This document shows positions 1-20,807 of a DNA stretch of 28,514 nt, piece by piece (the first letter of the stretch is position 1; every line of letters begins with the position of its first letter). The position numbers and the translations under genes were made by a program. This stretch comes from a virus. The stretch lies in the IMG/VR virus record IMGVR_UViG_3300009788_001588, positions 1-28,514 of that record. One strand, written 5' to 3'. A model generated the notes under the pieces. The model saw nothing but the letters and a program-made list of their open reading frames with translations. It was not told the DNA's origin and made no database searches.

Positions 1-672
1 CGTAGCTACCACTATGCGCACACCCTACCATGGGAGTGGAAAGGGGCACAACTGCTACCTGGGGACTTCTTCATGGAGTACACCAAGAGGATCGCCACGC
101 TCATCGGAGAGTTTGAGAGAGAGATCGACGTCTTCTGTGACCCTGCGTACTACCAAGGTGCCATCCAGGCAGCGCAGATCGAACTGAAAGACGCGTTCAA
201 CGCAGCAGACTATCCGCCCGCACATGAAATCCGCAACCAATTCGGGGCCACGATCGACTACGACCCGGTACCAAGCGCAGGGGACTTCCGCGTAGACGTC
301 CACGCAGAGGAGATCGCCAAGCTGAAAGCTGCATGGACCGTCAGAGAGAAGGCGATCGCTCGCAACTGCACCGAGCACCTGTGGGGCAAGCTGAAAGGCT
401 TGATGGAGCACGCACAAGAGCGCCTGGACGACCCTGACAACGTCTTCCACGACACCCTGCCGCAGAACATCAAGGACTTCACGGATATCCTGGGCAAGAT
501 GAACATCGGCCAGGACTTCAACCTCGATGCGTTGGGCAAGGAAGCGGCCGTCATCGGCGACCTGGACCCACAGGCCCTGAGAGATGATCCGCAGGCCCGA
601 CAGGACGCAGCTGACCACAGCCAGTCGGTACTCGACAAGATCAAGAACCAGATGGGGGCATTCAATGACTAA
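1..672 (+). CDS. DUF3150-like protein, 5' end cut off by the window
   Basis: The reading frame is open from base 1, so the ATG at 73 is probably internal. The residues encoded before it (HTLPWEWKGAQLLP, then FMEY) resemble the HTLPW...dGyriLp...F pattern I recall for DUF3150 phage proteins, and no Shine-Dalgarno precedes 73. The rest is mostly helical, charged and soluble with no membrane segment. It overlaps the next gene, a zinc-peptidase/VWA protein, by 8 bases. DUF3150 and VWA-peptidase genes often sit beside a MoxR-type AAA+ ATPase gene, which would be expected just upstream of the window. The molecular function of DUF3150 is unknown. Family assignment is from motif memory and moderately sure. 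Confidence 0.75.
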   Translation, partial: RSYHYAHTLPWEWKGAQLLPGDFFMEYTKRIATLIGEFEREIDVFCDPAYYQGAIQAAQIELKDAFNAADYPPAHEIRNQFGATIDYDPVPSAGDFRVDVHAEEIAKLKAAWTVREKAIARNCTEHLWGKLKGLMEHAQERLDDPDNVFHDTLPQNIKDFTDILGKMNIGQDFNLDALGKEAAVIGDLDPQALRDDPQARQDAADHSQSVLDKIKNQMGAFND

Positions 673-2224
673 GGTGACATGGTCGGAGCAAGTTGGGCCG
701 CAGGAAACCATTGACCTAGACAATCCGCCAGTGATGGTGGACTATATGGGCAAGGCAACCGAAGATCCAGACTGTGCAATAGGCTGGTTCAACCCGGCAA
801 CCGGCAACGGCAAAGACTTCGACATTTGGACATTGAAGAAAATAAGAGGGGACACCAAGCCCCTACCGCATACGCAGGCCAATTACGATACGGCCAAGCA
901 TTGGCTCCTGCGTCACCACGCGTTCTACGGATCATTCCTGGTCTCGTTGGCGTGTGAGTGGATGTACGGCATACCCGTGGCAGCGACCGATGGCAGTCGC
1001 ATTCTGTACAACCCCGAAACGTGTGCTGACCTGACGCAGGCTGAGTGGCGTTTCCTAATGGCCCATGAGGTCATGCACGTCGCTCACCTGCACTCCTTCC
1101 GTAAGAGAGAAAGGAACCATAAACTATGGAACATCGCTACTGACATCACGATCAATGAACTGATCACGGAGGGGAAGAATTTCCAACCCGTGAAAGGTGC
1201 CCTCCTCCCCATTGACGATCCCAACACTGGGATGATGTGGGCCAAGTATGCCGGACAGAGTCCAGAATGGATCTACAAGGACCTGTACGACAATGCAGAG
1301 GTGGTTGACGGCGGACAACCAGATACCGGCGGCGGAAGCGATGGTGATAAGAAGGGCAACAGCACCGCTGGCGATGACGATACGACGGATGGCTCCGCAC
1401 AAGGCAAAGACCAAGCAGGCGACCAAACCGACGCTAACGGTAATCTGGACCCCGACAAGCTAGGTGACCGCGGACGAGCCGGTAACCAAGCTGGGACGGC
1501 GAAGCGACATGTAAAGATCGATTGGCTCCACGGGGATGTGCTGCCACCGTGTGACCTGACCGATGCCGAGCGTAATGCTGCGGCAACCAAGATCAAGCAA
1601 CTCGCTGCCAAGGCGGCCTATCACGCACAAGCGATGGGCAGCGATGAACAGCTAGCGAAAGACGTACTAGCTGGTACCGTGCCACCAGGTTCCTGGCAGA
1701 TGAAGCTCAGGAACTTCGTGTCATCAGTGGTTGAGAAAGACGACTACTCATGGGCTAAGCCCAATAGGCGATACGTGGACCAGGGCATCTACTATCCAAC
1801 CCTCACGGGAAACAAGCCACCGAAACTGATGGCAATCGTCATCGATATCAGTGTGTCCGTCAGCATCGACCAACTGAACAAGATGTGGGAAGAGGTAGCT
1901 GGGGTGATCGCAACGCACCCTAACCTGACCTTTGAAACCTTCTTCGTCAATACGCAGGTAATGGAGCGAAGGAAGATTGGCATAGCCGACCTGCCGTTGG
2001 AGTTTGATGTCAGAGGATGTGGGGGAACGTGTTTCAGACCCGCATTCGAAGTCATCGAAGAAGAGGGATTGGAAGTCTCAGGGTTGGTGTACTTCACAGA
2101 CATGGAGTGCTACTCATACGCACCTGAACCATGCTTCCCTGTGATCTGGTTGAATTTCGATCATCCGATTCACATGGGAGCAACAGAATATCCGCCCTAT
2201 GGCGAGGTGGTAAACATGATATGA
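665..2224 (+). CDS. Zinc-metallopeptidase-like / VWA-like protein (DUF2201 type)
   Basis: 519 aa from the ATG at 665; the frame is open further upstream, but that part lies inside the previous gene, and a G-rich Shine-Dalgarno (GGGGG) precedes 665. The N-terminal half has a zinc-binding HEVMH at residues 134-138, inside AHEVMHVAH. An acidic Gly/Asp/Thr-rich linker runs from about 218 to 278. The C-terminal part is VWA-like with a MIDAS set: DISVS at 394-398, a Thr in GGTCF near 454 and the Asp of TDME near 479. This domain order is that of DUF2201 proteins, which are thought to work with MoxR AAA+ ATPases as chaperone-like remodelling complexes. Peptidase activity is unproven; the role in a phage is inferred only. 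Confidence 0.85.
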   Translation: MTKVTWSEQVGPQETIDLDNPPVMVDYMGKATEDPDCAIGWFNPATGNGKDFDIWTLKKIRGDTKPLPHTQANYDTAKHWLLRHHAFYGSFLVSLACEWMYGIPVAATDGSRILYNPETCADLTQAEWRFLMAHEVMHVAHLHSFRKRERNHKLWNIATDITINELITEGKNFQPVKGALLPIDDPNTGMMWAKYAGQSPEWIYKDLYDNAEVVDGGQPDTGGGSDGDKKGNSTAGDDDTTDGSAQGKDQAGDQTDANGNLDPDKLGDRGRAGNQAGTAKRHVKIDWLHGDVLPPCDLTDAERNAAATKIKQLAAKAAYHAQAMGSDEQLAKDVLAGTVPPGSWQMKLRNFVSSVVEKDDYSWAKPNRRYVDQGIYYPTLTGNKPPKLMAIVIDISVSVSIDQLNKMWEEVAGVIATHPNLTFETFFVNTQVMERRKIGIADLPLEFDVRGCGGTCFRPAFEVIEEEGLEVSGLVYFTDMECYSYAPEPCFPVIWLNFDHPIHMGATEYPPYGEVVNMI

Positions 2225-12923: not shown

Positions 12924-15900
12924 TTAGTCTCCTAGAAGACCTGAGATCTGCATCATCAGGTCAGGGTCAGTACGCATAGCGAGGTAGGCGTTCATGATCT
13001 GGTATGCGTACGTGGTCATTGCTTGATCGAGCTGGAACAGCTGGTCTACCCTAGTCTCTTGGGTGAGGGACTCATCTGCCCTGATCGCACGCCGTGCCTT
13101 GTGCATGGCGGATAGTTGTTTGGTGGCCGTCTCCAACAGCTGGGCGGGGACGAACTCGGGGTGCTTATGGACAATGTCTCTGATGCGCTCCGGGCGCATG
13201 GCTGCCTGGTTGTACTGCATGCTGCCCAGTACCTTCTTGTCCATCTCCCACTGGTCGTACAGCTCCCGCACAGGGGCGGAGTTGCTACCGAAGGGCTCGC
13301 GGCCGTACAGACCACCGGCACCGGGTCGATCCGTGATGTCACTGATGTGACTGGGACGCTCTGGGATGAGGCCCAGGTCCTGCATGCCCATGTCGGCAGT
13401 GGTCATCAAGCCAGCTCCGAGGGAGCCCGTGTAGCGCCTGATCAGGTAGCCCATCTGGATGGGGTTGATGTTCAGGGCCTCAGGGGTGAGGTGGTTGAGC
13501 ATCTTGCTCAGGGAGCGCTCCATAGGAGTCGTGGACTCGGTGTAGATGTCCTGCGGTTGTAGCTCACCGGTCATGAACCGGGGTGGAACGATCGGTGCTT
13601 TGAAGAACGGGTCCCAGTTGGCGTTGATGTGCAGCAGGGGGGCAATGAACTGAGGTGCTAGCGTGGCCCCTAGGGTGTTCTCCTTGGTGGGCATAGCGTA
13701 CCTGGCGACCATGTTAGTCGTAGCGTACTCTGTGACCTGCTCTTTCAAGTAGTTGAAGGGAGTGGTCCCTTGCAGCAGTGGGTCTCCGGCGGGCAGTTGG
13801 TTCTCTGCCGCTCCGCCGCCCTGTCCCGTAGGTGAGGTTGCCATTCCCATCGACAGCAGAGCGACCAGGGCTTGTGGAATGCCGCCCATCTCCTCATGCA
13901 CACCCTTCTTGGTTTCGTACATGGTCTCTTGGAAGTTGTCCCGAGCCTCCCGAGCCGCTCCTCCGGGCCACAACATCTCTTCGATGGCTCGCACCATGGC
14001 GGGATCATTGGCTGCGATGTAGTCCATGAACTTGTGTGCAGCCAAGCCAAACACGCCATTGACCATGCCCAGAGGGCGTGGTATACGTCCGAACTTCTTG
14101 TATTCAGAGTCGAAGCCGAACGGGTGCAGGTACAGATCCTTCTCGATCTCGCTCTGGGCCTGGTAGTTTGGGTCGTCAAAGTTCAGGTACCAGTTCGCTA
14201 TGGCGGGGATGGTGATGTAGGTGAACGCCTTGGTCATGGTTGACAGCGGGCTCTCCTTCATCGCCTTGGTGAAGCGCCACATGTCTTGCAGCTCTGCGTT
14301 GAAGAAGGGGTACAGCCCGTTGAGGGCCTCACCGTATTTGCCGTGTCGGGCAAAGTCCAGAGTGATGTTGCGCATCTCGTCGATGACCGCGGAGTCCACC
14401 CAGTTACTCTTGGCCAGTCTCTCCATGGTAGCGTCATCCAGGAAGCGTGCCTCTTTGACCCTGCCGAAGAAGCCCTTGCGAGCCTTGCGGGAGTAGAGCA
14501 TCTTGCCCCAACCGGTAGCCCCACCAGCAGCGTCATCTAGGGCTGCCATGAGGGTCATCCTCTTGCCCTTCTTCATGCGGGCACGCATACCAGCTGCGGC
14601 TCCTACGCGGGTGCCTTCTTCTAGGGCCTCCGAGATCTTAGCCAGGGGTGCCAACCAGCGGTCGAAGCGAGACACTTCGGGGCTGGTCTTCTTGCTCATG
14701 TCAGACACGTAACCCCGGTAGCTCCCCTTGAACCTTTTCGCTAGCAGGCTCATAGGCTCGTCGGTACGGTGGATACCAAAGGGCACAGTGGCGTCACGTA
14801 CGACACCGATCGGGTCTGGGTCCTTCCCCAGCCTGGATATGTCGGAGAGTCTCTCCCCGGTGCCGATGTCTACTTCGAAGTTCTTAGTGCGCTGGTAGAT
14901 ATTACCAACGTGCGTGGACTGTCCACCACCGCTCGCTTTGAGCGTGTTGTAGAAGTCGCTCTTGGTGATAACGTGAGCCATCCCGCGCCAGAAACTAAGC
15001 ACGGGCTTGTAGCCGTATTTGGAGAGGGTTGCGGCCATGAATTGGTCACGAATCGGATTACGGAGCATGAAGTTGAGGCCGAGCACTGTGCCCTTACGGA
15101 ACACACTGGTAGGCCCGCTCATGAATTTGAGCATCTTATGCAGCGTATCTGCCTGCGTTGGTTGCAGCGCCTTGTTGGCGATGATCATGCTGGGATCGTC
15201 GAACTGGTAGGCGATGCGCTGTACGGAGCCGTCCGCCTGCTTGTGGAAGGCTACCATCACATCGTCCGGGGTGTGCTTCATCAACTGCTTGACAGCCCGT
15301 GCGTCAGTGATGGCGTTCACACCCTTCATCAGGTGGGGGTTCTCCATCAGCATGTCACCGGTCAGGTTGCGTACGCGCTGCCGGGTAGCCCACTTGTTGA
15401 TGGCTACGCCACGGGCGATGAACTGGTCTAGGGGGTTGACGACCTTGCGACGTCCCCCACCCAGGCCGTGCTTACGACCATGCAGTGGGACCGGGTCGGC
15501 CTTGGGGCGCCCGAGTGAGCCACGCGCCTTCTTCACCTCGGCCACTGTCTGGGACAGCTGTTCTAGGGTCTTGATCTCATCGACTGCGTCTTGTCCGATG
15601 ATGCTGACAAGAAAGTCGTCGCTCTGGTGACGGCCCCAGGGAGCGAACCATGACTCCATGTACTCCATCACTTGCTGCTTGCCCTTGGCATTGATCCCAC
15701 CTACGTCCACTATCTGGTCGAAGGTGGCGCGTTGCAGCCAGGACCGGGCCCTGGTCGCTTTATCCAGGAGCTGTGCATGCTGTTCCTTACCAGCCACACG
15801 GTACAAGTCTTCCAACTCACGTTCCATGCGGAAGAGTTCAGGGATCTCGTCCAGGTCGAAGTCAACGAACTTCTCACCGGCGTCCTTGGCCATCTTCTGT

Positions 15901-18011
15901 GCCTTAGTCAGGTCACCACCGGCTAGCCCCATCCACTTGGTGAACCGGGGGATCTCCACCTTGGTGGCCATCTGTAAGGTCATAAGGCGCAATACAGCGT
16001 CAACGTCGTCCATCTCTACGCCTTGGAAGACGTCGGTCAGGGCCTCACCGGTCTCCACCATCTGGACGGTACCGTCTGCGCCACGGCTCGCTATGGTGGT
16101 GACATTGCTAATCATGGAGCGAGCGAATTCATCGCCTGCGTGGAGCTGGTTGAGGTAGGCCGTCAGCTCGCGGAACTCTACTTTGCCCGCCGCCTTGCCC
16201 AGTCGTGTCAGGCCGGTGTACTGGTCGAAGGTGTGTGCAACGAACGTCTTGGCGAAGCGCTTGGTCCACTGCACCATGGTCTCGCCCTTGTTGGCGGGCA
16301 TGTGGTCCAGAATGATCTGACGTCCTTCTCCCTTAGACTTAGCCGCACGACCGATGATGTCATCAGCTACCTTGATAGAGTCCTCGGTGTTTCCTAGCGT
16401 ATTGATCAGGGTTTTCCGAATCCTGGCTAGGTCCTTTGCTGAGGCTGTTCCTGCGGCAATGGAGTCTACCTGGCGCATCATTGTAGCTGCACGCCGCCCT
16501 GCACGTATAGCACTCACGGCCTTGCCTGCTACTCCGGCTATACCGAATGCGTAAGCGGTGGCTGTGCTACCTGCACGAATCAGCTCGCCCACTGAGACGT
16601 TGCCGACGAAGGGTAGATCATAAGTAGTGCGATCGGGGTCGTAGTCACCTGTGACAAAGTCGATCTGTCTCTGGTGCCACTTGGCGTCTAGGCCGTCAGC
16701 CCACTGATAGATCTTGCTGTTCTCGTCGGGGTCTCCATCGGCCACCCAGTCATAGATGTCCTCGGGGAGCATCATCAGCTCGGGGGCCTCGCGCATCGCG
16801 GAAGAGATCAAGGTGCCGATAGCACCGGCGTCTACTCCCTCGTACGTGGTCAGCTCACCCGTCAGGTCGTCAGGGGCGGACATGTCCACGACGTGCCCTA
16901 CCATGCTGGGCAGGAAGACCTTGCCCAGAGGGCGATCGTACTTACCCTTCCACTCACTACCCTTAGTGGTGACGGTGACCTGGGTGCCCACCTTGTAGCG
17001 TGACATGAGGTCAGCCTCGGCAGCGGCACCCTCAGGGGTGTCGGACTCAGGTGCGTCGATGTCAGGGAGACGTATCCAGCGCTCCTCGCCGGTACCCATC
17101 TCACGGACCTGGATAGTGTCCGCATCCTCGATCTTCAAGATGCGGGCCTTGTAATGGATCGGGTAGTCCTGCTCAATCTGGTTGCCGTACTTGTCTAGCT
17201 CAGACCCAGCATAGGGGGAGCCTTTCAATACTCGGGAGGGGGTAAGCGAGGGTTTCCCCCCATACTGGGTAACATGCTCTGCCATCGCCTGGGAGCCGAG
17301 GGGGATGCCTAACCTGCGTGCTTCCAGCGATACATCGTCGAGCTTGTCTTCGTCAGGCTGGGAGTCCTTGCGCAACCCGGCCATGTACTCTTCGTACGGC
17401 GCGACTTCCATGTTCTCTGGTTGCTGGACGTTGGACCCAGCACGCAGCTGCGCTATGTAGTCTTCGTAGTTGTCCTCTACTCCTGCTCGCTGCTCAGGCT
17501 GAGGGTTAGACTCTGCCCGCAGCCGGGACACGTAATCTTCGTACTTCTCTGGGCCACTTCCCCCTCCACCGGATAGAAGAGAGGGATCTCTTGCCTCCGA
17601 AGGTGGTAGCACATATCGCTCGTTGTAGCGTCTGCGGTACTCTTTGGGCTCATCCCAGTCGTAGGCACCGTGTCGCTCGATGTTGCCCATGCCTGCGTTG
17701 TACGCAGAGAGGGCCCGCTGCTCGTCGCCATTGTAACGGTCGATTAGGACTCGCATGTACTGAGCCTGCGCAGCGATACTCTTCTCCGGGTTGAAGAAGT
17801 CTTCGTCATCGACTAATCCGTAGTCACCTCCTGTGGCTCTCATGAACTGCGAGATGCCCATAGCGCCCTTCGGACTCACAGCCCGAGGGTTGAAGTTGCT
17901 TTCGATGCCTGCCTGAGTACGCAGCATACCGGGGTCGATCCCGTACTTCGCACCGGACGCTTGGAAATACGCGTCGTACGGAGTAGGGTCATACCCATAG
18001 ATGGGGGGCAT
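12924..18011 (-). CDS. 1695-aa polyvalent ejection-type protein: lytic transglycosylase + SNase-like nuclease
   Basis: A very large virion protein, with AGGAGGT just before ATG 18011. Residues 1-130 form an SLT-type lytic transglycosylase: Glu37 in AGIES, GAMGISQFM (49-57) and SAYNAG (102-107). A Gly-rich linker (147-155) leads to three copies of a YEDY-type repeat (157, 182, 206). Residues 287-372 match a staphylococcal-nuclease domain: DADT (296-299), RLPDIDAPE (Arg314, Asp319, Glu322, at the same 8-residue R-to-E spacing as SNase) and KYDRPLG (Arg360). A small hydrophobic helix lies near 483-505. From about 975 to 1280, RNPIRD and PFFNAELQD resemble the LPD38-type region of large polyvalent proteins. 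It probably opens the cell wall and enters with the DNA. Confidence 0.8.
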   Translation of the reverse strand: MPPIYGYDPTPYDAYFQASGAKYGIDPGMLRTQAGIESNFNPRAVSPKGAMGISQFMRATGGDYGLVDDEDFFNPEKSIAAQAQYMRVLIDRYNGDEQRALSAYNAGMGNIERHGAYDWDEPKEYRRRYNERYVLPPSEARDPSLLSGGGGSGPEKYEDYVSRLRAESNPQPEQRAGVEDNYEDYIAQLRAGSNVQQPENMEVAPYEEYMAGLRKDSQPDEDKLDDVSLEARRLGIPLGSQAMAEHVTQYGGKPSLTPSRVLKGSPYAGSELDKYGNQIEQDYPIHYKARILKIEDADTIQVREMGTGEERWIRLPDIDAPESDTPEGAAAEADLMSRYKVGTQVTVTTKGSEWKGKYDRPLGKVFLPSMVGHVVDMSAPDDLTGELTTYEGVDAGAIGTLISSAMREAPELMMLPEDIYDWVADGDPDENSKIYQWADGLDAKWHQRQIDFVTGDYDPDRTTYDLPFVGNVSVGELIRAGSTATAYAFGIAGVAGKAVSAIRAGRRAATMMRQVDSIAAGTASAKDLARIRKTLINTLGNTEDSIKVADDIIGRAAKSKGEGRQIILDHMPANKGETMVQWTKRFAKTFVAHTFDQYTGLTRLGKAAGKVEFRELTAYLNQLHAGDEFARSMISNVTTIASRGADGTVQMVETGEALTDVFQGVEMDDVDAVLRLMTLQMATKVEIPRFTKWMGLAGGDLTKAQKMAKDAGEKFVDFDLDEIPELFRMERELEDLYRVAGKEQHAQLLDKATRARSWLQRATFDQIVDVGGINAKGKQQVMEYMESWFAPWGRHQSDDFLVSIIGQDAVDEIKTLEQLSQTVAEVKKARGSLGRPKADPVPLHGRKHGLGGGRRKVVNPLDQFIARGVAINKWATRQRVRNLTGDMLMENPHLMKGVNAITDARAVKQLMKHTPDDVMVAFHKQADGSVQRIAYQFDDPSMIIANKALQPTQADTLHKMLKFMSGPTSVFRKGTVLGLNFMLRNPIRDQFMAATLSKYGYKPVLSFWRGMAHVITKSDFYNTLKASGGGQSTHVGNIYQRTKNFEVDIGTGERLSDISRLGKDPDPIGVVRDATVPFGIHRTDEPMSLLAKRFKGSYRGYVSDMSKKTSPEVSRFDRWLAPLAKISEALEEGTRVGAAAGMRARMKKGKRMTLMAALDDAAGGATGWGKMLYSRKARKGFFGRVKEARFLDDATMERLAKSNWVDSAVIDEMRNITLDFARHGKYGEALNGLYPFFNAELQDMWRFTKAMKESPLSTMTKAFTYITIPAIANWYLNFDDPNYQAQSEIEKDLYLHPFGFDSEYKKFGRIPRPLGMVNGVFGLAAHKFMDYIAANDPAMVRAIEEMLWPGGAAREARDNFQETMYETKKGVHEEMGGIPQALVALLSMGMATSPTGQGGGAAENQLPAGDPLLQGTTPFNYLKEQVTEYATTNMVARYAMPTKENTLGATLAPQFIAPLLHINANWDPFFKAPIVPPRFMTGELQPQDIYTESTTPMERSLSKMLNHLTPEALNINPIQMGYLIRRYTGSLGAGLMTTADMGMQDLGLIPERPSHISDITDRPGAGGLYGREPFGSNSAPVRELYDQWEMDKKVLGSMQYNQAAMRPERIRDIVHKHPEFVPAQLLETATKQLSAMHKARRAIRADESLTQETRVDQLFQLDQAMTTYAYQIMNAYLAMRTDPDLMMQISGLLGD

Positions 18012-18012
18012 G

Positions 18013-19260
18013 TTACCTCCTACGTTTCTTGATTTCCAGTACGATGAGCATCATGGCGTCTTCGTCATTCTCTGCCTGTGCCCGTGCGTAGTGCTGCTTC
18101 TCTGCTGGGGTACCATGGGTCATGACGTCTCTGATGCCAGAGCGTGCGGTTTCCTTGTAGATGCGACGGACATCCTCAGGGCTAGCTTCGATGCCCTTGG
18201 CCAGGAAGTCCATGTCCACCATGCGTGCGATTACATCGTCCGAGGTGCCAGGCAGGATGGACCTGACGTGGTCGATACCGGCCTGCCTGTCGGCTTGTGC
18301 GACACCCTTCTTGGCCGACTCTTCCTTACCCTTGTACTCCAAGAGGCGCTGCTCACCAGCGTCCATGGCTGAGGAGTGGTCCATCCATAGACCATCGACG
18401 TTGAACTCACGCGACCCATCCTCGTTGACGCGGTACTGAGTTTGGCCCAAGCCCCTCACGTTGGTGAAGAGTCTCTTGGTGTGCTTCTCCTTCATCTTGG
18501 CCTGGCCTTCCTCCTTACTCAGGCTGTTCCAATAAGCCGTCTCATGGGCCGCCTCGCCGTACGTACCAGGAGAAGGGGCGTTGAGGGCCTTGATCTTAGC
18601 CAGGACACCGAGACGCTCTTCCTTCCGGGAACGCCTCATCTCTTGCAGGGGGAGCTGGCTCATAGGGCCTGCCATGCCCTGACTGGCATCACCTAACATA
18701 CCGAGTATGTCACCTGGGTTGTTGGCGGCTCCTGCGAAGAGGGCTTGGAGGATGCCCTCCTTCTGATCGTGTCGTAGTGCGTCCTCCTGCTGGGCTGTGT
18801 CCGTCTCCCAGGCGCGATTGAATTGTGCCTCTGGGCTGTGGTCTACGCCGCCATCAGGGGGGAACGCTCCTGGCATAGGTGACATCTGCACCTGGCCGGG
18901 GTCTACCCCACCTTCCGGGAAGGGGAGGACAGTGCCACGGCTCTGCACGATCTCGTCCGCGAAGGACTGGTACGGGAAGCCCTCACCTGGGAGGGAGGGA
19001 GCAGGTGGCTGCATTGGCCCCTCTGGGCCCATAGGCTCGTTGAAGAGCGCATAGTCTCCCGGCGCTACCACCTTAGGGTCAAAGCTGGGGCCTGGGGAGG
19101 GCATAGGCATCGGACTGCCCTGCACCGGCTCATTGATAGGCTGGGGCAGTATCGTTGACCTGGGGCCGAACTGACCGCCTCCGGGTGGCGCCAATTGGTA
19201 GTCGGGGAGATACTTGGCTATGAGCCCTGCGAGACCAGGGACTGAGAATGGATTTGGCAT
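18013..19260 (-). CDS. Pro/Gly/Met-rich internal virion protein
   Basis: 415 aa, ATG 19260 with AAGGAG seven bases upstream. Residues 1-150 are Pro/Gly/Met-rich and disordered; the rest is helical and charged, with a probable long helical stretch (RRSRKEERLGVLAKIKAL and a KEEGQAKMKEKH segment). No enzyme motif. It lies between a Gly-rich protein and the 1695-aa ejection protein and ends with TAG/TAA signals right before the latter, so the three are probably co-assembled as an internal core. Known podoviruses carry similar internal protein sets; the match is by position and composition. Confidence 0.7.
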   Translation of the reverse strand: MPNPFSVPGLAGLIAKYLPDYQLAPPGGGQFGPRSTILPQPINEPVQGSPMPMPSPGPSFDPKVVAPGDYALFNEPMGPEGPMQPPAPSLPGEGFPYQSFADEIVQSRGTVLPFPEGGVDPGQVQMSPMPGAFPPDGGVDHSPEAQFNRAWETDTAQQEDALRHDQKEGILQALFAGAANNPGDILGMLGDASQGMAGPMSQLPLQEMRRSRKEERLGVLAKIKALNAPSPGTYGEAAHETAYWNSLSKEEGQAKMKEKHTKRLFTNVRGLGQTQYRVNEDGSREFNVDGLWMDHSSAMDAGEQRLLEYKGKEESAKKGVAQADRQAGIDHVRSILPGTSDDVIARMVDMDFLAKGIEASPEDVRRIYKETARSGIRDVMTHGTPAEKQHYARAQAENDEDAMMLIVLEIKKRRR

Positions 19261-19263
19261 CGT

Positions 19264-20397
19264 CTAGCTCCTTGCCCACGGTTGGTTACCGTCTGAGCCG
19301 GTGCCGAAGTAGTTGCCAAGGCCCCTACCCACGCCCGCTCCTGTGGTTCCACCGGTTACGGCACCCTGCCATCCACCTGGTGATCCAGGCGTGGTGCCGG
19401 TCTGCTGCTGTGTCTGACTACCGAAGGACTGCTGGTAGGGGTGCTGTGCTGCACCGTAGGCCGCTGTGAGGCCAAACTGTCCAAGGCCAGCGCCCTGTTG
19501 TTGCATGCCTGCCATCTGGGAACCAAGGCCGAATACGGCCATCTGGTTGTTGAATGCTTGCTGCTTGGCACTCCCTCTGGCAGCAGCAGCGGCCTGGCGC
19601 TCCTGGGACTCGATGCCTGCCATGACGCCTTGAAGCTGCATACGCGCTGACGCCTTAGTGGCGTCGTTGCTGAACGCCCCGGTGTCATACGAACTCTCCC
19701 TGCCGGACCATGCCTGGTTAGCGGCGGCCTGCTGGGCGCGGAGCTGCTGATCGTAGTTGGTGATGAACTGACCCTGCTGGATGCCCAGGTTCTCACCGAA
19801 GTCGTCGGCTAGCTTGCCTCGACCTGCGGCCATCATACCGGTCATGCCCATGGTGCCACCGGCGCCTGCGAACTGCCCGAATGCCTGTGACATCGCCTCA
19901 CGCTGTGACTCGTCGGATTCCAGGCGCATGCCTGCCAAGCGCTGGGCCAACTGAGGGTTGTTCTCCCAGTCCATGAAGCCAGGATCTAGGACGCGGGTCT
20001 CGTAGTCGTTGAAGGCTACGTTGTTGCCAGCGAGGCGCTTCATGATACCACCACCGCCTCCACCGCCACCACCGCCTCTGCCTTGCATCTGACTCCCCAT
20101 ACCAGCGCCACCACCTCCACCGCCGCCTCCTTGACCACCATAGGCGGATGAGTACAGGCTGTCAAACATCGCGTTCTGGTACCCAGTGGGGCCGAAGTTG
20201 ACGTTGTTCATGGCCTGGTTGTAGGTACCCTCCATGCTCTGACCCCAACGGTCAGCCATGCCTGGGTTCCACGCCTGGTTCTGGGTATTAGTCTCGGTCG
20301 ATTGCACCTGGTCTGGACCACCCTTGCTACCCATGAGGGCGCCGAGGACGGGAGGACCGAACTGCATTGCTGCCATTGCTGCGACTGGGGGTGCCAT
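19264..20397 (-). CDS. Gly/Ala/Gln-rich internal virion protein
   Basis: 377 aa, AAGGAG five bases before ATG 20397, which overlaps the previous stop as TAATG. It has a hydrophobic N-terminus (AAMQFGPPVLGALMG), poly-Gly tracts near 90-117 and a long Gln/Ala-rich helical region (about 205-300). Small-residue and Gln-rich proteins of this layout occur as internal core proteins in marine-type podoviruses, roughly as T7 gp14 does. It is next to other likely ejection proteins. No sequence motif proves the role. Confidence 0.7.
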   Translation of the reverse strand: MAPPVAAMAAMQFGPPVLGALMGSKGGPDQVQSTETNTQNQAWNPGMADRWGQSMEGTYNQAMNNVNFGPTGYQNAMFDSLYSSAYGGQGGGGGGGGAGMGSQMQGRGGGGGGGGGGIMKRLAGNNVAFNDYETRVLDPGFMDWENNPQLAQRLAGMRLESDESQREAMSQAFGQFAGAGGTMGMTGMMAAGRGKLADDFGENLGIQQGQFITNYDQQLRAQQAAANQAWSGRESSYDTGAFSNDATKASARMQLQGVMAGIESQERQAAAAARGSAKQQAFNNQMAVFGLGSQMAGMQQQGAGLGQFGLTAAYGAAQHPYQQSFGSQTQQQTGTTPGSPGGWQGAVTGGTTGAGVGRGLGNYFGTGSDGNQPWARS

Positions 20398-20807
20398 TAT
20401 AGCTCCTTGATATATTCAACGTAGCGTGGACGGTAGCCACGCCGGTTTGCGATCGATGCAAAGCGAGGGTCGCTGCTGATGAACTTGGTTGCTGCGTAGC
20501 CCCATGCAGCGGCGACGGTTTCGAACTTGTCCCATGCCGCTATTAAGCTACGGATGCTGTTATCGCGTATACCGCAGAAGGGTACATTCAGGTGCCACCC
20601 TTTCTGGGTCTTGATGTTCTCGGTGATGAATGTCCCGTTCACGTCCCCGTCTTGGGCGATGAGCCAGCACTGACAGCAACCGCTCCGTATCGAGCGATAG
20701 ATGTCATACAGGGACACCATGTCTTCTGAGGCGGAGACTGACGCGGCGAGGTGGGGCCTGATGGCGAACCAGAAGTGCGCCAGCTGGCTGGGGTTCTCTA
20801 CTCGGAT
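20397..20807 (-). CDS. GNAT-like acyltransferase, apparent ATC start
   Basis: The frame has ATG at 20720 (107 aa), but a sensible protein sequence continues upstream in frame (NPSQLAHFWFAIRPHLAASV) and the 86-base gap before the ATG would be unusual here. At 20807-20805 an ATC overlaps the previous stop as TAATC, exactly where neighbouring genes have TAATG. With it the protein is 136 aa. The pattern WFAIRPHL, LYDIYRSIRSG, CWLIAQDG, FETVAAAWGY, NRRGYRPRYVEYIKEL resembles small phage GNAT-type proteins. No conserved acetyl-CoA motif is clear, so activity is uncertain. The upstream TAG near 20830 limits the start region. Confidence 0.65.
   Translation of the reverse strand: MRVENPSQLAHFWFAIRPHLAASVSASEDMVSLYDIYRSIRSGCCQCWLIAQDGDVNGTFITENIKTQKGWHLNVPFCGIRDNSIRSLIAAWDKFETVAAAWGYAATKFISSDPRFASIANRRGYRPRYVEYIKEL

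Follow-up and report, generated by a model that had tools for sequence, protein, structure and literature searches.

A staphylococcal nuclease-type domain in an LPD38 polyvalent protein, probably an ejection protein of an HTVC010P-type podovirus

Results

An SNase-type domain in a 1695-aa viral protein

We find that a 1695-aa protein, encoded by an ATG-initiated minus-strand ORF (12924-18011) in a 28.5-kb IMG/VR virus fragment, carries a real staphylococcal nuclease (SNase) domain at about residues 283-377, with every catalytic position present. Judged by its domains and gene order, the protein probably belongs to an HTVC010P-type podovirus and fills the gp16 position among its ejection proteins. 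The window, by which we mean the whole stretch of DNA analyzed (28,514 nucleotides of record IMGVR_UViG_3300009788_001588), had previously been described from its letters, and this first-pass annotation had singled out the interval 16890-18011, which corresponds to residues 1-374 of the protein. The features discussed below are collected in Table 1.

Table 1. Positions of features in the window and, for the last three rows, in other viral contigs.
Feature	Position	Strand	Basis
LPD38 polyvalent, gp16-position ejection protein (probable), 1695 aa	12924-18011	-	PF18857; synteny with HTVC010P-type phages
SLT lytic transglycosylase domain, residues 15-122	17646-17969	-	PF01464; T7 gp16 structures
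Catalytic Glu37 of the SLT domain	17901-17903	-	Sequence
Variable linker, residues 138-225	17337-17600	-	Sequence; 30% identity to L009
Segment before SNase, residues 226-282	17166-17336	-	63% identical to L009
SNase domain core, residues 283-377	16881-17165	-	Profiles, predicted fold, alignment
D296 of DADT (SNase D19 position)	17124-17126	-	Invariant in 40 SNases
D298 (SNase D21 position)	17118-17120	-	Invariant in 40 SNases
R314 (SNase R35 position)	17070-17072	-	Invariant; kept in L009
D319 (SNase D40 position); Asn in L009	17055-17057	-	Alignment
E322 (SNase E43 position)	17046-17048	-	Invariant; kept in L009
R360 (SNase R87 position)	16932-16934	-	Invariant; kept in L009
Hydrophobicity maximum, residues 484-502, C-terminal to SNase	16506-16562	-	Kyte-Doolittle scan
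LPD38 best stretch, residues 1441-1545	13377-13691	-	PF18857
Upstream trio of ORFs (415, 377 and 107 aa) where gp14/gp15-like internal virion proteins are expected	18013-20720	-	Gene order, conserved in L009 and parallel in HTVC034P, HTVC204P and Lederberg
Virion protein at the tail-tubular-B position, 1079 aa	21388-24627	-	phrog_3287 (virion structural protein), E 9e-32
SNase protein near terminase large subunit gene, 1566 aa	L124:3063-7763
SNase protein near terminase large subunit gene, at least 934 aa	L163:2-2806
SNase protein near terminase large subunit gene, at least 527 aa	L098:8234-9817

The Pfam model PF00565 gave 12.9 bits for the whole protein and 17.4 bits for the isolated SNase domain, under the cut-off of 21, which is a detection threshold and no biological property. 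PHROG 452 (SNase-type endonuclease) matched residues 285-367 with E 2e-8, or 6.5e-10 for the isolated domain, and an HMM trained on 38 stand-alone viral SNases from the RLxGIDAPE scan described below, with the window protein and its homolog L009 (see below) left out, scored 44.1 bits against the 1695-aa ORF (E 1e-11), compared with a maximum of 9.6 bits for shuffled domains (n = 10,000). Profile-profile comparison returned a probability of 98.4 (E 9e-15). In an alignment of 40 SNases, D296, D298, R314, I318, E322, G328 and R360 occupy invariant columns and D319 an almost invariant one; the catalytic set of the window protein, comprising D296, D298, T299, R314, D319, E322 and R360, is complete. 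The first-pass annotation had proposed an SNase-like domain with the full catalytic set, which these data bear out, and its residue numbers and motifs (DADT, RLPDIDAPE, KYDRPLG) were correct. The C-terminal helices of classical SNase have no recognizable counterpart in the sequence of the window protein.

Residues 285-376 are predicted to adopt the SNase OB-fold core. Most of these residues have pLDDT >90 in the AF2 model, in which they follow the order beta-beta-beta-alpha-beta-beta; beyond approximately residue 380 the model is weak. When the AF2 core was searched against the PDB with Foldseek, all 50 of the matches listed were staphylococcal nuclease, and VIA-align superposed the predicted core on SNase with Z 11.0 (101 residues, rmsd 2.8), with Tudor-SN chains close behind at Z 10.8. 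Because its input alignment included stand-alone SNases, the model does not count as evidence separate from the sequence match; AF2 run from two sequences on residues 1-470, intended as an unbiased control, had too low a confidence for that purpose (pLDDT 40), although strands appear at 284-314. An OB-fold SNase core, which the first-pass annotation had suggested looking for by structure prediction, was thus obtained.

A full-length homolog keeps most of the catalytic residues

One close homolog was available, L009 (IMGVR_UViG_3300027881_000068), which is likewise 1695 aa long and collinear with the window protein over the full length at 48% identity, and whose upstream genes resemble those of the window in size and are conserved in order. 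Identity between the two proteins is 73% for the SLT part (residues 1-137), 30% for the linker, 58% for the SNase core and 36% for the mid region. Since the core is better conserved than the linker and mid region, and dN is below dS in the comparison of the two (0.39 vs ~1.1), the SNase domain is under selection. D296, D298, T299, R314, E322 and R360 are kept in L009, among them the three residues (R314, E322, R360) whose conservation in close homologs had been put forward as a check on the domain. The segment directly before the SNase core, residues 226-282 (TPSRV..GSPYAG..D..GNQ), is 63% identical to L009, above the core itself, and belongs to no known family.

The D40 residue of SNase is a metal ligand, and the equivalent position, D319, is Asn in L009; this caution was absent from the first-pass annotation. 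Nuclease activity therefore may not be universal, and in L009, one of two known members, the sequence suggests that the chemistry may be weakened or altered.

The N-terminus resembles T7 gp16

The SLT-type domain with Glu37 reported in the first-pass annotation was confirmed: PF01464 matched residues 15-122 (E 2.3e-24; 85.6 bits vs a Pfam cut-off of 21.3), solved T7 gp16 chains matched residues 9-112 (E 4e-12), and the catalytic residue Glu37 is present. The match to PHROG 342, the family of T7 gp16-type internal virion proteins, runs over residues 9-204 and so takes in the SLT domain as well as the linker that follows. Within the linker (residues 138-225) are three imperfect YE(D/E)Y(V/I/M)xxLRxxS motifs (YEDYVSRLRAESN, YEDYIAQLRAGSN and YEEYMAGLRKDSQ), possibly with three degenerate counterparts at the same position in L009. 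The SNase domain comes about 160 residues after the SLT domain. In location and length, this linker resembles the 'molecular tape' of T7 gp16 (residues 157-228), and by analogy its motifs may be docking sites for a tunnel protein.

In T7 gp16, the periplasm holds residues 1-156 (SLT, Glu37) and 157-228 (the tape, which lies on the gp15 tunnel), whereas subsequent parts of the protein go into the membrane and the cytoplasm (PMC8954989). The window protein shares with T7 gp16 the N-terminal SLT domain with Glu37, the tape-like linker next to it and a similar place in the ejection cluster. It differs in that T7 gp16 has no described nuclease, and the C-terminal body of gp16 is unmatched in the window protein, whose body is of the LPD38 type.

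The LPD38 body and gene order place the protein in an ejection cluster

LPD38 (PF18857) was detected with E 5.6e-18 and 66 bits, compared with a Pfam cut-off of 27. The C-terminal 1,300 residues align at 19-25% identity to LPD38 proteins of the Pelagibacter phages HTVC034P, HTVC204P and Lederberg and of ct8d5349, a podovirus from an environmental sample. In these genomes, the genes are ordered tail tubular A, tail tubular B, acetyltransferase, putative internal virion protein, hypothetical gene and LPD38 gene, with the LPD38 gene in the T7 gp16 place. The order in the window matches, and synteny puts both the window gene and that of L009 inside the internal virion protein cluster. The HTVC010P-type synteny, the T7 gp16-family match over residues 9-204 and LPD38 all support the earlier suggestion that this is an ejection protein.

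A scan of viral contigs for relatives gave 80 loci. Pfam detected LPD38 in all 37 sequences of a set comprising the window protein, L009 and 35 diverse relatives, and SLT in two of them; the 35 relatives (1,186-1,384 aa) have neither SLT nor SNase. By local search among the loci collected at that point, a high-scoring match to the window-type SLT, or any match to the SNase region, was found only for the window protein and L009. Single-sequence queries of IMG/VR with the whole protein or the SNase domain returned no relatives, tblastn and blastn found no relatives of the SNase domain among 50,697 phage records, and searches with the two-sequence alignment for further SLT-SNase-LPD38 proteins returned L009 only as having both domains. 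Genome contigs yielded no SLT-SNase-LPD38 protein, and RLPDIDAPE had no match in viral contigs outside the window's own record; the scans for such relatives used exact peptide patterns, by which relatives may be missed.

One LPD38 protein met in this work, MW202898.1 (L005:7382-11224), is labelled 'type I restriction enzyme methylase'. The label looks unfounded, because Pfam gives LPD38 alone.

SNase domains in other large viral proteins

Among the matches listed for a scan of viral contigs with the pattern RLxGIDAPE, several SNases reside in large proteins. One of these, L126:7555-9501 (IMGVR_UViG_3300001765_000124), is a 648-aa protein with a C-terminal SNase domain and an N-terminus related to phCDa_8, the product of a gene adjoining the virion RNA polymerase gene of an N4-like phage. 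Like the window protein, L126 has an SNase fused to a podovirus virion-module protein; it differs in its carrier protein, the C-terminal position of the SNase and the lack of SLT. This N4-like virion-module protein is apparently an independent case, which suggests that SNase has been recruited more than once. Pfam or local search found no SLT in L126, L098, L124, L163, L171, L195, L200 or L208. L098, L124 and L163 were set aside as comparable cases, given that the nearby terminase large subunit gene marks a different setting.

Discussion

Comparison with known polyvalent and nuclease proteins

Phage polyvalent proteins were defined by Iyer et al., 2017 (PMC5512222), and effector and lysozyme domains are already known in the LPD38 class, whose members (PF18857; HTVC010P-type phages included) have the LPD38 body and the late-gene location in common with the window protein. 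The same paper describes an Acinetobacter prophage polyvalent protein with a lysozyme and a DdrB-like ParB DNase; this protein likewise joins a wall-cutting enzyme and a DNase within one predicted injected protein, but its DNase belongs to the ParB/sulfiredoxin superfamily, whereas the window protein has a predicted SNase OB fold. In a term search of that paper, SNase did not come up among the polyvalent-protein domains. Another giant protein, JC1 gp69 of a Bcep22-like podovirus, combines an N-terminal LT-like domain with a C-terminal LPD38 (PMC9144972); it differs in its size (>4,400 aa) and its helicase and methylase-type domains, and none of the domain rows consulted for it is an SNase. Stand-alone phage thermonucleases (PHROG 452, PF00565) share the SNase domain and identical catalytic motifs with the window protein, but are small, separate and unlinked to any ejection protein.

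The first-pass annotation knew of no description of a fusion of this kind. Likewise, no paper with an SNase in an ejection or polyvalent protein was found in open PMC text; a nuclease in an injected protein is, as an idea, already known from PMC5512222. SLT with LPD38 and lysozyme with a ParB-type DNase are known combinations, and what appears to be new is SNase as an effector domain of an LPD38 ejection protein. A putative metal-dependent, probably non-specific nuclease thereby joins the effectors that seem to travel with podovirus genomes, in a class for which the main survey reported no SNase.

A possible role at entry and alternative explanations

We favor, with a confidence slightly better than even and by analogy with T7, a polyvalent ejection protein in which a Ca-dependent nuclease is delivered together with the wall-opening module, at the channel's periplasmic side. 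The 1695-aa protein would be packaged in the head and exit together with the genome. Its SLT domain would then breach the peptidoglycan, with the linker tethering the protein to the tunnel in the manner of T7 gp16. Because the SNase lies between the periplasmic SLT and linker and the first hydrophobic segment (residues 484-502, possibly the first membrane-inserting part, with an equivalent in L009 that is the top hydrophobic peak there too), its location would be periplasmic and external to the channel. This placement depends on the T7 analogy, and a different topology would put the SNase in the cytoplasm.

SNase-type enzymes require Ca2+ at levels absent from the cytoplasm, so that the nuclease would be restrained there and allowed to act in the envelope. 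Low cytoplasmic Ca2+ would silence it during assembly, and periplasmic Ca2+ would then permit it to cut DNA or RNA outside the tunnel, candidate targets being released host nucleic acid and the DNA of another invading element; the phage's own DNA would pass within the tunnel and escape. A broader proposal, which we think rather unlikely, is that the ejection machinery of podoviruses has acquired an SNase on repeated occasions, and that this enzyme works only where the envelope is rich in Ca2+, destroying nucleic acid outside the channel, for instance that of competitor phages or of the host, and sparing the phage's own DNA. If true, the wall-opening protein would also destroy nucleic acid beyond the DNA channel. 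The window protein raises the question of how a phage packs a nuclease beside its own DNA, and residues 270-400 offer a compact construct for testing if nucleic acid is a target of ejection proteins during entry.

The D319N difference in L009, the missing or unrecognized C-terminal helices and the almost equal match to Tudor-SN chains (Z 10.8) would also suit a nucleic-acid-binding module, such as a DNA clamp or tape of the ejection apparatus, that has lost most or all catalysis, like several SN domains of Tudor-SN. We regard such a module as unlikely, if a serious contender: the catalytic set of the window protein is complete, six of its residues (D296, D298, T299, R314, E322 and R360) recur in L009, whose domain is 58% identical, and a pure binding domain would have no need of both arginines and the glutamate. 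An outright artefact, in which the motifs match by chance or misassembly has fused two genes, has in its favor the Pfam SNase score under the gathering threshold; we give it next to no credence and rejected it on the SNase profiles, the fold, the invariant residues and the existence of L009, a separate IMG/VR record with identical domain order and length.

Distinctly improbable, in our estimation, is action of the nuclease in the host cytoplasm once the whole protein has been translocated, where it would degrade a competitor element or the DNA or RNA of the host. The Ca2+ requirement would be unmet in that compartment, the nuclease would have access to the phage DNA as it enters, and the SNase follows directly on the SLT and tape-like part and precedes the first hydrophobic segment. 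Cytoplasmic action has, however, been proposed for the DdrB-type ParB DNases of polyvalent proteins by Iyer et al., 2017 (PMC5512222), and the C-terminal part of gp16-type proteins does get to the cytoplasm (PMC8954989).

An HNH-type ORF elsewhere in the window

The window also contains a 546-aa ORF at 584-2224 (+), the C-terminal part of which strongly matches PHROG 1314 (HNH endonuclease). The helicase, exonuclease and virion genes are encoded on the other strand from this HNH-type ORF.
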